47,032 nucleotides of DNA from Acidisoma sp. L85 (GTDB lineage: Bacteria; Pseudomonadota; Alphaproteobacteria; Acetobacterales; Acetobacteraceae), in the NCBI RefSeq assembly GCF_009765865.1, contig NZ_LMUQ01000026.1:396942-443973 (forward strand), in the 5' to 3' direction. Positions 5,488-18,739 of this stretch are shown here, piece after piece; the stretch's first letter is position 1; the number at the start of each line of letters is the position of its first letter. Made by a program: the position numbers and the translations under genes. Under the pieces are notes generated by a model. That model was not told the origin of the DNA, did no database searches, and was given only the letters and a program-made list of their open reading frames with translations.

Positions 5488-5505
5488 AGTTGCAGTTATG
5501 CAACT
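5488..5505 (+). promoter_or_regulatory. Small hairpin over a start codon
   Basis: AGTTGCA (5488-5494) and TGCAACT (5499-5505) are perfect inverted arms around GTTA. The presumed ATG of the large glycan enzyme, 5498-5500, lies partly in the loop and partly in the right arm. No Shine-Dalgarno precedes it. In RNA this could hide the start codon; it could equally be a dyad for a DNA-binding protein. Confidence 0.35.
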
Positions 5506-8500
5506 TTCTCCCATAAATGCGGCGATGACAAATGGCGCGCATGATCGGCTGACAAAAGACGGCGATAAAGCTCGGCGTCAGGCGCGCCGCGTGGCGCGCG
5601 CGCGGAAGCCTCCCGTTGACCCAGCCCTTGACGGGATTAGCCGAAGCGGATTGTTCGACGAAGCCTGGTATCGGCTCCGCTACGAGATTCGACCCAAGGT
5701 CGATGCGCTTGCCGACTGGTTCGAGCGGGGCTGCAAGAGTGGATTTCAGCCCAATCTTTGCTTTCAGCCCGATTGGTATCTCGCGCAGTACCGGGACGTC
5801 GAGGCCCACGGCATCAACCCCCTTGTCCACTACATCGACAATGGGGAGGCCGAAGGCCGTAAACCCTCACCGCTTTTCGACCCTGCCTGGTATCGCCAGA
5901 CATACAACCCGCCATCGGGCGAGTTGTGTCTCGCGCATTATCTGCGGTTGCGCGGAACCGGAACGGTCAATCCGCTGCCCGGCTTTGACGCGAATTTCTA
6001 CCTCTCGGAGAATTCCGATGTCGCTGAAGCAGGCGTTGATCCCTTCAGCCATTTCATGGAGCAGGGGTTTCGGGAGAACCGTGACCCCTCTCCCAGTTTC
6101 GACACGGCGTTTTATCGGAGCCGGTATCTGCGCAATCAGCCCGATGCCAATCCGCTGCTCGACTACCGGGAAAGGCGTGAGCGCGATCTTGTCTTCGTGC
6201 GCCGCCCTTTGCACGAGGAGACAATCCCGGCGGAGATGCGCCGCTTCACCCGGCCAGGCGAGTTTTTCGAGGAATTCCAGCCACTCCCACCGGGTGCGCC
6301 GCGACGGGCGATGGTGCTGGCTTATTACCTGCCGCAGTTTCATGCGACGCGCGAGAATGACGCGTGGTGGGGCAAGGGCTTCACCGAATGGACCAATCTG
6401 GCGCGGGGCCTGCCGCGCTTCGGTGGCCATTACCAGCCGCGCACGCCGCGCGACTTAGGCTTCTACGATCTCAACGACCCAGCCACCATGCGCCGGCAAA
6501 TCGCGATGGCGAAGGCCGCCGGTCTGGGTGGTTTCATCTTCTACTTCTACTGGTTCGACGGCGAACGTCTGCTGGACAGCCCGATCGAGCGGTTTCTCGC
6601 CGATCCCACGCTCGACATGCCTTTCTGCCTTATGTGGGCGAATGAGAATTGGACGCGCCGGTGGGACGGTCTGGAAACCGAAATACTCATCTCGCAGGAC
6701 TATCGGCCGTCCGACGATGAGTCGCTGATCCGCTGCTTCGCGCGCCATTTCGCCGATCCGCGCTATATCCGGCTGCAAGGCCGGCCCGTGCTGATGATCT
6801 ATCGCCCGAACATCATTCCCGATGCGACCGGAACCATCGCACGGTGGCGCGAGATGTTCCAGCGGATCACCGGCGAGGATCCGCTGATGGTCATGGCTCA
6901 GGGGTTTGGTGCCGCGGATCCGCGCGAGTTCGGGCTGGATGGTGCCGTCGAGTTTCCCCCGCACAAGCTTTGTGCCGATTTGCCGTCGATCGCCGATAGC
7001 CTGATGTGGTTCGATCCGGACGCTCAGGGCAAGATTGTGCGTTTCGAAGATGCCGTGCGGCAATCGCTGGACGAGCCGACACCGCCCTTCCCGCTTATCA
7101 AGACCGCTTGCCCAGGCTGGGACAATGATGCCCGGCGGGAAGGCAAAGGCATGGTGGTGCATGGCGCGACGCCCGCCGCCTTCGAACACTGGGTCAGTGA
7201 GCTGGTCGATCGCGCGCGCACGGCGCCTTTCTTCGGCAAGGCGATCGTCTGCATCAATGCCTGGAACGAGTGGGCCGAGGGCGCCTATCTGGAGCCCGAC
7301 ACCCATTTCGGTGCCGCCTTCCTCAATGCGGCGAGCCGCGCGATCAGCGCCGCCGCGCCGCCGCATCATCGCGCGAAATTTCTGCTGGTAGGCCATGACG
7401 CGCATCGCCATGGGGCGCAGACGCTGCTGCTCGAACTTGGTCGCAAACTTCGTGCGGCGCATGGTCTGGCCGTGGAATTCCTGCTGCTCGACGGCGGTCC
7501 AATGCTCGCCCAGTATGCTGCCGAAGCGCCGACGGCGGTACTGAGCGGCACGAAGGATCTGGAGCGGGAGATCAACGGGTTGCTGGCGCGCGGTTTTACC
7601 AGCGCGATAGTCAATAGCGTTGCCTCGGGGCGCGCCTGTGTGGCGCTGGCGGAGCGCGGCGTGGCGCCGGTGCTGCTGGTTCACGAATTGCCGAGTTTGA
7701 TTCGCGAGAAGTCTCTTACGGGGATTGCGGTGTCGGCGGTGGAAGCGGCGAAACACGCTGTCTTCCCCTCGACTTTTGTGCGCAACGCCTTCGTCGGGCT
7801 CACGCCTGCCGGGGTGGATTTGGTTGGTGAGGTCATTCTTCCGCAGGGTGTTTACCAGCCGGTCGTCTTCGATCTTGCGGCTCGATTGCGCGTTCGAGCG
7901 GAATTTGGCGTGCCCGCGGGGGCGCGGCTCTTGCTTGGCTTGGGTTATGGCGATCTGCGCAAGGGGTTCGATCTGTTCCTGCAGCTTTGGCGCGCCAGTC
8001 AAGGCGGAAACGAGCCGGTGCATTGCCTTTGGGCGGGCAAGCTGGACACGACACTCACCGGCTATCTTCAGCCCGAGATCTCCGCGGCGATGGAGGCCGG
8101 CAGCTTCCACCTGGCCGGGTTCCGTCGAGACGTGGCGGCGTTGCTTTCGGCCGCCGATGTCTTTGTGCTGACCTCGCGGGAGGATCCCTTTCCCTCGACG
8201 GTGCTGGAGGCTCTTGCGGCCGGACTGCCGAGTGTCGCTTTCCTCGGTTCCGGCGGTGTGCCTGAGATGCTGGCCGAGTTTGTCGCCGGGGAAGCGATGC
8301 CGATGGGCAATGTGGCGGCGATGGCGCTGGCGGCGCGGCAGCTAGGCGATCTCGCGGACGTGGAGATTGCCGATCGGCGCGAGCGGCTTGCAGCTATCGC
8401 CGAAGAGTATTTCGATTTTGGCCGCTATGCGCGCGACATCGTGGATCATGTCGATCCTACTCTGCTGGAGGTCTCGGTCGCGGTGCCCAATTATAATTAT

Positions 8501-9379
8501 GCACAATACTTGCCCGAGCGGCTGGGTGCGATCTTCGGCCAGACGCTGCCCGTTCGGGAGGTGTTGCTGCTCGACGACGCTTCCACGGATGACAGCCTAT
8601 CCGTAGCGCGAGAGACGGCGGAAACTTGGCGGCGCGATCTACGCATTTTGCCAAACGAGCGCAATTCCGGGGCGGTGCTGCGGCAATGGCGCAAGGCCGC
8701 CGAAGCGGTGAGCGGGCGCTACCTCTGGATCGCGGAGGCGGATGACGACAGCGATCCGCGATTTCTCGAAAAGGCAGTGGCCGCGCTAGATGCCGAGCCT
8801 GCGGCGGTAATGGCGTTTACCGACAGCGCCTCGATTGACGAGGCGGGCGAAACGATCGAGGCGAGTTATCAGCACTACTACAATATTTCTGCCCCCGGCT
8901 TCCTCACGATCGACGGCGTGTTTCCCGGCGGGCTCTTCCTGGAGCGGTGCCTCAGCGAGCGAAATCTTATACTCAATGTAAGTTCCGTCGTGTGGCGGCG
9001 CTCGGCGTTGCTGGCGGCATTTGAGCGATGCGAAGCGGCGCTCGACACTTTCATGGTCGCGGGAGATTGGCGACTGTATGCGGAGGTCTTGTCGGTCCCA
9101 GGCGCGCGGATTGCCTATGTGGCGTTGCCGCTCAATCGGCACCGGCGGCATCGCGCGAGCGTAACGCGGTTGCTGGACGCGGATCGCCATGTCGCGGAAA
9201 TCGCGGCGGCGCAGGCGGCGGTGGCTAGATTTCTACCGCTGCAGTCGGCGCGGATTGCTCGTCAAAAGCAATATCTTGAGGAGGTTTCGAAGCAGCTTGG
9301 CGCGGGAGGCATGCCCCCGCGCCTCCGCGACCCAACGAAACGGGCGGCTCGCGCCCGGTCTTCTAAGGCTGGACGTTGA
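5498..9379 (+). CDS. Trifunctional surface-glycan enzyme: WbsX domain + GT4 + GT2
   Basis: The 1293-residue protein contains at least three catalytic modules. Residues about 48-215 hold four copies of a short unit of the type FDxxWYxxxY...NPLxHYxxxGxxEGRxPSP, often found at the N-terminus of bacterial glycosyltransferases. Residues about 271-620 are a WbsX domain (related to GH99), with YYLPQFH, the conserved WWGKGFTEWTN, FYFYWFDG, WANENWTRRWDG and AWNEWAEGAYLEPD. Residues about 627-975 are a GT4-type glycosyltransferase, with a GLGYGDLRKGFD loop and the EDPFPSTVLEALAAGLP nucleotide-sugar site. Residues about 992-1240 are a GT-A fold GT2, with VAVPNYNYAQYL, LLLDDASTDDS and an EADDD metal site. 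No signal peptide is present, so it should act in the cytosol on LPS or exopolysaccharide precursors. It overlaps the convergent CHRD gene by 17 bp. The start is uncertain; a second in-frame ATG lies at 5525. Confidence 0.87.
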   Translation: MQLSPINAAMTNGAHDRLTKDGDKARRQARRVARARKPPVDPALDGISRSGLFDEAWYRLRYEIRPKVDALADWFERGCKSGFQPNLCFQPDWYLAQYRDVEAHGINPLVHYIDNGEAEGRKPSPLFDPAWYRQTYNPPSGELCLAHYLRLRGTGTVNPLPGFDANFYLSENSDVAEAGVDPFSHFMEQGFRENRDPSPSFDTAFYRSRYLRNQPDANPLLDYRERRERDLVFVRRPLHEETIPAEMRRFTRPGEFFEEFQPLPPGAPRRAMVLAYYLPQFHATRENDAWWGKGFTEWTNLARGLPRFGGHYQPRTPRDLGFYDLNDPATMRRQIAMAKAAGLGGFIFYFYWFDGERLLDSPIERFLADPTLDMPFCLMWANENWTRRWDGLETEILISQDYRPSDDESLIRCFARHFADPRYIRLQGRPVLMIYRPNIIPDATGTIARWREMFQRITGEDPLMVMAQGFGAADPREFGLDGAVEFPPHKLCADLPSIADSLMWFDPDAQGKIVRFEDAVRQSLDEPTPPFPLIKTACPGWDNDARREGKGMVVHGATPAAFEHWVSELVDRARTAPFFGKAIVCINAWNEWAEGAYLEPDTHFGAAFLNAASRAISAAAPPHHRAKFLLVGHDAHRHGAQTLLLELGRKLRAAHGLAVEFLLLDGGPMLAQYAAEAPTAVLSGTKDLEREINGLLARGFTSAIVNSVASGRACVALAERGVAPVLLVHELPSLIREKSLTGIAVSAVEAAKHAVFPSTFVRNAFVGLTPAGVDLVGEVILPQGVYQPVVFDLAARLRVRAEFGVPAGARLLLGLGYGDLRKGFDLFLQLWRASQGGNEPVHCLWAGKLDTTLTGYLQPEISAAMEAGSFHLAGFRRDVAALLSAADVFVLTSREDPFPSTVLEALAAGLPSVAFLGSGGVPEMLAEFVAGEAMPMGNVAAMALAARQLGDLADVEIADRRERLAAIAEEYFDFGRYARDIVDHVDPTLLEVSVAVPNYNYAQYLPERLGAIFGQTLPVREVLLLDDASTDDSLSVARETAETWRRDLRILPNERNSGAVLRQWRKAAEAVSGRYLWIAEADDDSDPRFLEKAVAALDAEPAAVMAFTDSASIDEAGETIEASYQHYYNISAPGFLTIDGVFPGGLFLERCLSERNLILNVSSVVWRRSALLAAFERCEAALDTFMVAGDWRLYAEVLSVPGARIAYVALPLNRHRRHRASVTRLLDADRHVAEIAAAQAAVARFLPLQSARIARQKQYLEEVSKQLGAGGMPPRLRDPTKRAARARSSKAGR

Positions 9380-9812
9380 CCTGACCGCGGATCTCACCGT
9401 TCGGGAAGGCTTGCGTATGGAGGTTCACGTAGTAGAGGCCGCCTAGAAGCTGCGACACCTCGTCGAGCGTCAGCTTGGCGGCGCCGTCGATCGGGCTGGT
9501 CAGCGGCGGTGGGATCGGGACCACCGGCGGCGCGTCTATGCCGGGTGTCGCGGGGCCATGGAAATGCGCCGCCATCACCGGGCCGGAGAGGCCCGAATAG
9601 GTGATGTGCCACTGTAGCGTAAGCGTCGCCGCGTCATACTGCGCCGTGACGTAGCCAAGCCCCGTCGGAGGCGCGCCAGTCACTGGAATGAGCTTGGCGG
9701 TGAGGGTAACAACGGCAGCCTGAGCCGAGCCCGAGGCGAGTAGACCGCCGACGCCGAGGAGCGTCACAGCCGCGAGGGTCATGAGGCTGCGCCGGCCGAG
9801 AAATTGCTTCAT
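9363..9812 (-). CDS. Exported CHRD-domain protein
   Basis: The 149-residue protein starts MKQFLGRRSL and continues into a hydrophobic stretch ending SGSAQA, a signal peptide with cleavage near residue 32. The mature part is a single CHRD domain. It contains AHFHGPATPG and ends with YVNLHTQAFPNGEIRGQV, the His- and Gly-rich closing motif of the family, named after chordin and common in bacterial exported proteins of unknown role. The ATG at 9812 is preferred because AAGGA lies about ten bases upstream; a second ATG at 9839 also has a purine-rich leader. Its 3' end overlaps the convergent glycan-enzyme gene by 17 bp. Extracytoplasmic location is well supported; function is unknown. Confidence 0.85.
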   Translation of the reverse strand: MKQFLGRRSLMTLAAVTLLGVGGLLASGSAQAAVVTLTAKLIPVTGAPPTGLGYVTAQYDAATLTLQWHITYSGLSGPVMAAHFHGPATPGIDAPPVVPIPPPLTSPIDGAAKLTLDEVSQLLGGLYYVNLHTQAFPNGEIRGQVNVQP

Positions 9813-9904
9813 CGCGAATATCCTTGCTGTGGCACTCATAAAAATATCTCGCTCCCTGCTCGGTGATGTTGAGGGGGCGATCACGGGATCGTGACGCTTT
9901 AGAG

Positions 9905-11143
9905 TCAGGCGGCTAGCCGGTCTACCTCCCGGATGGCGAGGCCCAGGCTGGCGACGAGATCGTCCATCATCGCGTCGGTATGACGGGGGGTGGGCGTCAG
10001 CCGCAGACGTTCCTGGCCGCGCGATACGGTCGGGTAGTTTATGGGCGTCGCGTAATGCCCGTGATGCTCGAGTAGGAGGCGACTGATCTCTCGGCACCGC
10101 ACGGCCTCCCCAATCGCCACCGGCACAATGTGGCTTGGAGACGGCAGCACCGGCAAGCGTGCCGCGGCGAGCTTGGACTTCATGGTCTCGGCACGCTCGA
10201 ACAAAGCCGCGCGGCGTGGGGCGTCCTGCCGCAGGTGACGGATGCTGGCGAGTGCACCGCCGACAACGGCCGGCGGTAGCGAGGTGGTGAAGATAAAGGC
10301 GGGCGCCGTCGAGCGGAGGGAATCGACCACGACGGCATCCGCCGCGATATAGCCGCCATGACAGCCGAAGGCTTTGGCGAGCGTGCCCTCGACGACAGTC
10401 AGGCGATGCGCGACACCATCGCGTTCCGCGACACCGCCGCCCTGCGGGCCGTACATGCCGACGGCATGAACCTCGTCGAGATAGGTCAGCGCGCCGTAGC
10501 GATCCGCTAGATCGCAGATCGCAGCGACGGGCGCGATATCGGCATCCATCGAATAGACGGATTCGAAGGCGATGAGTTTAGGCGCCGCAGTGGGGGCCGC
10601 CGCGAGCAACTCGGCAAGATGGGCAAGATCGTTGTGGCGAAAGATATGGCAAATCGCGGAACTCATCTTGATGCCGGCGATCATCGAGGCGTGGTTCTTC
10701 GCGTCGGAAAATACGTGCCAGTCCGGCAGGCCGCGAAGAATGCCGCTCAGGCTCGCCTGATTCGAGACGAAGCCAGAGCTGAAGAGGAGAGCTGCCTCCT
10801 TGCCATGCAGCGAGGCGAGTTCAGTTTCCAGCGCGGTGTGCAGGCTGGAGGTGCCGCCAATGTTGCGGGTGCCCCCTGCCCCGGCGCCGGATGCCCTGAC
10901 CGCAGCACAGGCGGCTTCCGTGACGATCGGATCGACGCCCATGGCGAGATAGTCGTTGGATGACCAGACGATAACATCCCGCCGCTGGCCATCGCGTTCC
11001 ATCGCGTAGACCGGGAAGCGCGCGGCGTCCCGTTGGAGCGGAGTGAACTGCCGATAGCGGCCTTGCGCCCGAACATCGGCGAGATGCGATCGACAATGCG
11101 CGAGAAAGGCGTTCATCGGCGCTCCGGCGGAAAGCTGGGTCAT
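9905..11143 (-). CDS. hemA: 5-aminolevulinate synthase
   Basis: The 412-residue PLP enzyme condenses glycine with succinyl-CoA to form 5-aminolevulinate, the first step of heme synthesis in alphaproteobacteria. It shows the alpha-oxoamine synthase core: [10 protein letters not shown] (60-69), [17 protein letters not shown] (86-102), the PLP-ring Asp and His in [12 protein letters not shown] (D223), and the Schiff-base lysine in EGTLAKAFG (K257). INYPTV and [11 protein letters not shown] near the C-terminus are characteristic of ALAS. The start ATG overlaps the TGA of the upstream Cox11-cytochrome c gene (ATGA), with GGAGGTG just before it, so the two genes are translationally coupled. MNAFL at residue 10 is an alternative start. 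The coupling to a heme-containing copper chaperone is unusual. Confidence 0.95.
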
Positions 11144-12021
11144 CAGCCGCCCACCTCCGGCTTGCTGTCGAACTGCTTCAGATAGGCGATGATGTCGCGC
11201 CGCGCCACCGCATCATCCAGATGGACCGGCATCAGAGCGCCCGGCATCATCGCCTGAGGCCCGGCGATCCAGCGATCCAGAGTCTGCGTGTTCCACACCA
11301 CGGAGGAGGCGGCCAGCACGGTGCTGTAGGGGTAACCCGGCATCTTCCCGGCGACGTGGCCGTAGATGGTGTCGAGCGGCGGTCCGGCGGCGTTGCGGCC
11401 TGTCTGGTGGCATTCGGCGCAGTTCTGCATGAAGAGTTTCTCGCCGGCTGCGGGGTCCGGCGGCGCGCCGACGAAGCGCGTGAGATCCTTGATGTCGTTG
11501 GCGTGGGTCGCACGGAAGAATGTGTAGGACAGTGTGATCTGATCGACATCCGAGGTGTCGTCGGCGGTCGCGATGCGCGGATCGACGAAGAAATCGACCG
11601 GCATCTCCACCGTCTGCCCGGCCTTCAGCAATTCCTGGGTAAAGCAGAAGCACTGAACCTTCTTGAAATAGAGCCCCGCCTTGTCCGGCGTCACGTTGAA
11701 CAGCGCACGGCCGACGATGTCCTCCTTGGATAGATTAGTGGCGCGGAAGAAAACGAGCGCCTCCTGCCCGAGCTTGAGCTTCACGTGGTCCTGAACCGGC
11801 TCGAAGCGCCAGGGCAGACTGCTGGAGGTGGTGGTTGTGAAAAAGACCGTGACGGTCTTGTCGGAGATCTTCGAGTTGTTGCTGGTGACGCGCTGCGTGG
11901 TGCCATTATAGCCGGTGGCCTCGCAGAACAGCCGGTAGAGGGGCACCGAGAAGCCGACCAGCGTGATCATGATGGCGATCACGCCGCAGAGCCCGAGTAG
12001 TGTTGCGAGGCGACGCCGCAT
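11143..12021 (-). CDS. ctaG: Cox11/CtaG copper chaperone fused to a C-terminal cytochrome c
   Basis: The 292-residue protein joins two modules. Residues 1-183 are a Cox11/CtaG protein, which inserts Cu(B) into cytochrome c oxidase subunit I. The N-terminal membrane helix is at 8-27. The conserved periplasmic [15 protein letters not shown] (C33) follows, then an immunoglobulin-like domain with the copper motif CFCF (C124, C126) and ATHANDIK near the normal Cox11 end. Residues 188-285 are a class I cytochrome c: CAECH heme site (C201, C204, H205), a GPPLDTIYG loop, W-x-x-x-TLDRWI, the likely axial Met in MPGALMP (M264) and the closing helix DIIAYLKQF. Ordinary Cox11 proteins are about 180-200 residues and lack the heme domain. 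Both modules would face the periplasm, so the topology is consistent. AGGAG lies nine bases before the ATG. The gene overlaps hemA by four bases, and no other cta genes are in the window. Confidence 0.9.
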
Positions 12022-12837: not shown

Positions 12838-12914
12838 TGGGGCGAACGATGGGTTTCGAACCCACGACATCCAAGACCACAACCTGGCGCTCTACCAACT
12901 GAGCTACGTCCGCC
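12838..12914 (-). tRNA. tRNA-His (GTG anticodon)
   Basis: Read on the minus strand, the acceptor stem is GCGGACG/CGTTCGC, the D-stem GCTC/GAGC, the anticodon loop TTGTGGT (anticodon GTG, + strand 12878-12880) and the T-arm GTGGGTTCGAAACCCAT. A G at -1 (position 12914) faces C73 (12841), and CCA is encoded at 12840-12838. The -1 guanine is the identity element for histidyl-tRNA synthetase. It lies between bioY and the aminotransferase. Confidence 0.95.
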
Positions 12915-18664: not shown

Positions 18665-18739
18665 GCCGGGTTAGCACAGTGGTAGTGCAGCGGTTTTGTA
18701 AACCGAAGGTCGCGGGTTCAAATCCTGCACCCGGCACCA
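18665..18739 (+). tRNA. tRNA-Thr (TGT anticodon)
   Basis: The acceptor stem is GCCGGGT/ACCCGGC, the D-stem GCAC/GTGC, and the anticodon loop TTTGTAA (anticodon TGT). The T-arm is GCGGGTTCAAATCCTGC, the discriminator base is A, and CCA is encoded at 18737-18739. One pair of the anticodon stem (27-43) is mismatched (G-A). I found no repeat of its 3' end downstream, so there is no sign of an integrated element. Confidence 0.95.

Follow-up and report, generated by a model that had tools for sequence, protein, structure and literature searches.

Cox11/CtaG copper chaperone and class I cytochrome c in one protein: a conserved fusion with a predicted redox role in two alphaproteobacterial families

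A Cox11/CtaG domain followed in the same open frame by a full class I cytochrome c domain was found in the window (the whole 47,032-nucleotide stretch of Acidisoma sp. L85 DNA analysed here). The fusion is real and conserved; two families have it, as does a plasmid. Very probably it serves the aa3-type oxidase as copper chaperone, with CuB as its presumed target, and it adds to the Cox11 family a form whose predicted redox role is plausible. Passages of two reviews (PMC6696091, PMC9145763) describe copper insertion at the buried CuB site as “not well” or “poorly” understood. The fusion suggests that copper may be handed over together with electrons, and the heme joined to the CuB chaperone would be a coloured, titratable reporter on the copper domain.

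The fusion gene and its protein

The uninterrupted 292-residue frame claimed in the original prediction was borne out, on the minus strand (unstated there); the plus-strand reading from 11143 contains stops within the stretch. The features of the locus are as follows (window coordinates; conservation counts refer to 54 distinct fused sequences):

11143-12021, minus strand: cox11-cytochrome c fusion gene, a single open frame of 292 aa plus stop, ATG start
11941-12003, minus strand: putative N-terminal membrane anchor, about residues 7-27, a hydrophobic stretch recognised by eye
11512-11949, minus strand: CtaG/Cox11 domain, residues 25-170, Pfam CtaG_Cox11 (PF04442), model positions 1-148 of 148
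11923-11925, minus strand: third Cox11 cysteine, C33, adjoining the membrane anchor, kept in 54/54
11641-11652, minus strand: copper motif CFCF, residues 124-127, kept in 54/54
11458-11511, minus strand: short linker, residues 171-188, R182-F183 invariant in the alignment
11173-11457, minus strand: class I cytochrome c domain, residues 189-283, from Pfam and PDB matches
11407-11421, minus strand: predicted heme c attachment motif CAECH, residues 201-205, with C201, C204 and H205 kept in 54/54
11230-11232, minus strand: Met264, taken as axial ligand because it aligns with the Met of cytochrome c, kept in 54/54
9905-11143, minus strand: 5-aminolevulinate synthase (ALAS; heme synthesis), directly downstream, TIGR01821, E 3.4e-169

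In a Pfam search of the fusion protein, PF04442 was matched over its full length (185.9 bits against a curated cut-off of 25, E 5.5e-55), and the NCBIfam equivalog PRK05089, “cytochrome c oxidase assembly protein”, scored 201.3 bits against a cut-off of 162. The Cox11 half also matched PDB 1so9 (residues 26-171, E 6.5e-44), the Cox11 of S. meliloti, the species being that given in the PMC6696091 legend to the sister entry 1sp0. The CFCF motif and a membrane-proximal third cysteine, both characteristic of Cox11/CtaG, were present. The second half showed the N-terminal CxxCH and C-terminal axial Met of a class I cytochrome c, together with matches to PF00034 Cytochrom_C (residues 191-283, 39.1 bits against a cut-off of 21.3, E 2e-9) and PDB 1ccr (residues 183-284, E 5.9e-17). 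The earlier reading of Cox11 and a full class I cytochrome c in one protein was thus supported by Pfam, NCBIfam and PDB matches, and the positions that it gave for C33, CFCF, CAECH and Met264 all hold. Neither the SCO1/SenC thioredoxin-fold domain (PF02630) nor the COX2 domain carrying CuA (PF00116) was matched in the fusion protein at E 0.001. From the sequence, we infer that heme is attached to the cytochrome domain.

Distribution of the fusion

The screens used the window protein as query at E 1e-60 or 1e-54, and all genome samples were partial draws; at these cut-offs a Cox11 joined to some unrelated cytochrome may have escaped notice. The search for Cox11 followed by cytochrome c, proposed with the original prediction, showed that the architecture recurs: the fusion is carried by 32 of 299 genomes sampled from the window's family and by 26 of 286 from a second alphaproteobacterial family, and a plasmid has it too. 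The E 1e-60 screen matched 35 of the 299 genomes of the window's family: the 32 with the fusion, two with Cox11 only (G077 and G155) and one cut by a contig end (G165). Thirty-one of the 32 fusions were read as DNA; that of G278, at a contig end, was assigned from its match range (81-287) alone. Some Cox11 was present in 182 of the 299.

In a sample of the class (n=385), the window's own genome was the only one with the fusion at E 1e-54, and the 7 matches among the 384 other genomes were all Cox11-only. In a sample of the phylum (n=299), 2 of the 298 other genomes were matched: G773, which carries the fusion, and G897, Cox11-only. The 26 genomes of the second family, that of G773, matched both domains at E 1e-60 (G1217 twice). 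The plasmid copy is carried by pBAL398.3 (NZ_CP133114.1) of Rhodopseudomonas sp. BAL398, a named, conjugative plasmid on which the protein is publicly annotated plainly as “cytochrome c oxidase assembly protein”; in the plasmid search, one of the 398 records with any match covered at least 80% of the query. The family of G773 was taken as the one that holds Rhodopseudomonas (Nitrobacteraceae), since G994, one of the 26, has exactly the match coordinates of pBAL398.3. No separate fusion was found in 19 Cox11 loci of the window's family, chosen mostly for long frames among the matches listed, nor in 15 further Cox11 loci chosen among the matches listed in another search.

Evolutionary history

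Trees of the Cox11 domain were built from 95 rows (careful method) and 132 rows (quick method). All fused rows fell in one clade (support 100/97 with 95 rows, SH-aLRT 98 with 132 rows), and the sole unfused rows inside it were G077 and G155, beside the fused G204. The trees require two label changes, best read as one gain, then probably one loss of the heme domain. In G077 and G155 (loci L110 and L111) the Cox11 stop runs directly into the next open frame, no CxxCH was seen by eye in 900 nt at these loci, and the G204 fusion precedes the same downstream region (cluster c6). These two genomes carry the Cox11 half alone, so the heme domain is not indispensable everywhere.

Neither tree placed the fused clade as sister to the clade of the family's ordinary Cox11 (36 rows). 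This speaks for a possible replacement of the ordinary gene by an incoming one, on a backbone with weak support and with a long branch, L009, as the row nearest to the fused clade. The window's family also includes G105, one copy of which is placed with the Rhodopseudomonas type (support 100/93). In a tree of the cytochrome domains (quick method, SH-aLRT 90), which also held five duplicate rows of the fusion itself, seven other cytochrome rows fell outside the fused group.

Conservation and selection

The conservation set comprised 54 distinct fused sequences, that of the window included; identical Cox11 domains were counted once, and G278 and G165 (contig ends), G1104 and G1133 lay outside it. 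Fourteen residues were invariant in all 54 (C33, C124, F125, C126, F127, R182, F183, C201, C204, H205, P214, W243, W251 and M264), and the distance from CFCF to CxxCH was always 75-78 residues. Nei-Gojobori counts on 14 close pairs, with each half taken apart, gave dN/dS values of 0.05-0.24 for the Cox11 half and 0.04-0.52 for the cytochrome half (at most 0.26 in 13 pairs). Both were below 1 in every pair and the cytochrome half had the higher value in 11 of the 14: both halves are under purifying selection, the heme half being usually less constrained.

An artefact or misassembly was ruled out by the recurrence of the same architecture in 54 distinct sequences. A missed stop or frameshift at residues 183-190, raised in the original prediction as a refuting result, was excluded by the 53 other fused sequences. 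Because architecture, ligands and spacing recur in this way, and because dN/dS is below 1, the fusion cannot be put down to chance, a missed stop or a frameshift. It is highly improbable that the heme domain is a passenger of little function in a fusion fixed once: its absence from the nested pair G077/G155 and its weaker constraint in 11 of 14 pairs agree with such a passenger, but its ligands were kept in 54/54, its dN/dS stayed below 1 in 14/14 pairs, and the two domains occur joined in a second family, and on a plasmid as well.

The cytochrome domain might instead be a docking module which mimics the substrate of the oxidase, binds subunit II or the bc1-aa3 supercomplex and so holds Cox11 at the assembling oxidase, with heme serving for folding only. 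This is unlikely in our judgement. The class I fold, PDB matches mostly to mitochondrial-type cytochromes c and the short, near-fixed spacing between CFCF and CxxCH are in keeping with it, and the domain loss in G077 and G155 would be tolerated. The lysine ring of cytochrome c serves docking to the oxidase. However, the fused cytochrome domains hold few lysines (mean 3.6, range 0-7, n=54, against a mean of 7.7 in a small sample of seven other cytochrome c domains from the same loci), so such a ring would be weak here, which counts weakly against docking, and the heme ligands are invariant, Met included.

Another reading takes the protein as a membrane-anchored respiratory electron carrier of the cytochrome cy kind, with Cox11 as its anchor. 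Cytochrome cy constructs were among the PDB matches, but we regard this reading as very unlikely: a chaperone would be expected to be scarce, and the few lysines and the abundance of PF00034 speak weakly against it (18 matches in the window's own genome and 9-19 in six others searched; the fusion is counted in genomes that have it, and one protein can contribute several domains).

The fusion as sole Cox11

No PF04442 match besides the fusion was found in 30 of the 32 genomes of the window's family that carry it, the window's own among them; genome completeness was 62-100%, so a few may hide another Cox11. Three of the genomes with the fusion as sole Cox11 (G127, G183 and G225) are single contigs. 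In the two remaining genomes (G082 and G105) the aa3 operon has a second Cox11 between its CtaB and COX3 genes. CtaB adjoins COX3, with no Cox11 between them, in G000, G003, G071, G089, G110, G113, G163 and G204, and COX3 lies apart from CtaB in G127. The operon of G003 and of the window's own genome reads COX2-COX1-CtaB-COX3, without Cox11. A small frame of 85-89 aa lies between CtaB and COX3 in G000 and G003, that of G003 having no Pfam match; COX1 of G000 is split over two contigs, and the stretch from CtaB to COX3 is continuous. CtaB, COX3, COX2, SURF1 and Cox11 were identified by checked examples and, for the rest, by similarity.

Three genomes of the same genus (G001, G002 and G004) were without Cox11; G002 and G004 each had one COX1 frame of 670 aa, and G001 had three long ones plus one broken in two. 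In the second family, G773, the only one of the 26 genomes checked for this, had a canonical Cox11 besides the fusion.

As the fusion was the sole Cox11 found and the aa3 operons read were mostly without cox11, it is very probably a working CuB chaperone. On this point the original prediction is supported; electron transfer between heme and copper site, redox sensing and gated copper loading, which it also raised, are hypothetical functions.

Gene neighbourhood

The likely start of the ALAS gene is the ATG at 11116, 26 nt past the fusion stop (67 nt in G003). Given the same strand and this short distance, heme synthesis is possibly co-transcribed with the heme-bearing chaperone. Synteny, which had been suggested as a check, was confined to the genus: ALAS, an aminotransferase and glnA were common to fusion loci of the window's own genus, and broad synteny was lacking across genera of its family.

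Elsewhere in the window, a CHRD-domain protein is encoded at 9366-10097 on the minus strand (PF07452, E 1.3e-20); since the listed frame runs into the end of the ALAS gene, translation probably begins at a point further inside it. A 1293-aa protein with a WbsX-type domain and glycosyltransferase domains of families 1 and 2 is encoded at 5498-9379 on the plus strand, and two tRNA genes lie at 18665-18736 (plus strand) and 12841-12913 (minus strand).

A copper cluster with the order multicopper oxidase, DUF411, DsbE/TlpA, SCO, PCuAC, fusion and DsbA was found in four loci: the plasmid locus L119 (NZ_CP133114.1, 170097-196552), L235, L236 and L238, two of the last three being near-identical to the plasmid locus. 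CcdA was present in three of the four, the plasmid included. On the plasmid the PCuAC and fusion genes overlap by 4 nt, and after the cluster come a CusA/CzcA-type efflux system and genes for arsenic resistance. In two more loci SCO and PCuAC were divergent. SCO and PCuAC thus accompanied the fusion in 6 of the 23 loci compared (three of the six near-identical), and neither was found in the other 17 within the stretch fetched; PCuAC was also supported by Pfam in L245. When loci of the window's family were searched with the plasmid proteins, only L107 gave SCO and L108 gave DsbA, the latter locus being cut just upstream of the fusion.

Proposed role of the heme domain

Monoheme His/Met cytochromes have a potential of about +0.25 V. 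A cytochrome of this kind should be able to convert Cu(II) to Cu(I) bound by thiolates, but not to reduce a disulfide. One-electron upkeep of Cu(I) was favoured over disulfide reduction as the role of the heme because the disulfide would be out of reach and the copper clusters encode separate thiol proteins. The full best explanation, held tentatively and with rather less than even confidence, is that of a CuB chaperone with a covalent one-electron module which keeps and delivers Cu(I). Periplasmic c-type cytochromes or the bc1 complex would reduce the heme of the fusion, which would pass single electrons to copper at CFCF or to the nascent heme a3/CuB centre; copper would thereby stay in the Cu(I) form up to its delivery, in a periplasm that is oxidising and at times rich in copper, and the two-electron upkeep of thiols would be left to others, e.g. 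those encoded near the plasmid copy (DsbA, TlpA/DsbE and CcdA).

The status as sole Cox11, the operon pattern, the conserved ligands and spacing, the plasmid copper cluster and the precedent of CopZ (see below) are consistent with this one-electron module. The heme-less sole Cox11 of G077 and G155, the higher dN/dS of the cytochrome half, and copper genes that are mostly not nearby speak against it. Excerpts of published work bear on the same question: CtaG is required for aa3 activity in Caulobacter, added copper being no substitute (PMC12617631); Cox11 binds copper as a dimer via CxC (PMC9145763, PMC6696091); and PCuAC is reported to provide Sco and Cox11 with copper in R. sphaeroides (PMC9145763). 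A further report (PMC9232578) describes COX11 in human cells as becoming more reduced, and not more oxidised, once its partners are lost; this gives no sign that reductant is short and counts against our best explanation.

The heme could also feed electrons into the nascent oxidase, through CuA or heme a. The oxidase would then be in a reduced state when it receives CuB, or when the finished enzyme is checked, and copper loading would be gated by respiratory electron flow. The ligands invariant in 54/54 fit electron entry of this kind equally, and a passage of PMC9145763 describes Paracoccus Cox11 as staying on subunit I far into assembly; the heme-less relatives G077 and G155 speak against it, and we consider it quite unlikely. 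A broader conjecture, doubtful at present, is that copper insertion at CuB proceeds only when the chaperone's own heme is reduced by the respiratory chain, so that the oxidase is built in step with electron supply, by a module which is horizontally mobile and replaces the ordinary Cox11. G077 and G155, as close relatives without the heme domain, are natural controls, and together with the heme as reporter they make a redox step in CuB loading directly testable.

Comparison with known systems

No description of a Cox11-cytochrome c fusion was found in the open-licence full-text literature searched; public domain-architecture pages may list it, and PMC8239418 points to a supplementary section on Cox11 distribution.

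The protein resembles Cox11/CtaG (PF04442; S. meliloti CtaG, 1so9/1sp0) in its complete domain, CFCF and the third cysteine, and in a putative membrane anchor (by eye). The unfused Cox11 frames read end 2-38 residues past the matched region, whereas that of the window continues into a class I cytochrome c, and its gene, unlike that of ordinary Cox11/CtaG, lies outside the aa3 operon. A Sco-cytochrome c fusion of Pseudomonas putida, for which electron transfer was proposed, was reportedly described by Banci et al. in 2011; it likewise unites a copper chaperone of the oxidase with cytochrome c, but Sco has a thioredoxin fold and acts as CuA chaperone or as thiol reductase, and Cox11 is an Ig-like, dimeric CuB chaperone. 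The caa3-type COX2-cytochrome c, as described in part of PMC4013037, likewise has cytochrome c fused to an oxidase copper protein, but one which is a structural subunit with CuA and not an assembly factor. The CopZ of Archaeoglobus fulgidus, according to a passage of PMC7558416, is a copper chaperone fused to a redox domain which reduces Cu(II); it differs in being cytosolic, in having Fe-S in place of heme c and in being another chaperone. The Sco-cytochrome c fusion and the Fe-S-fused CopZ are the nearest precedents of the fusion described here.
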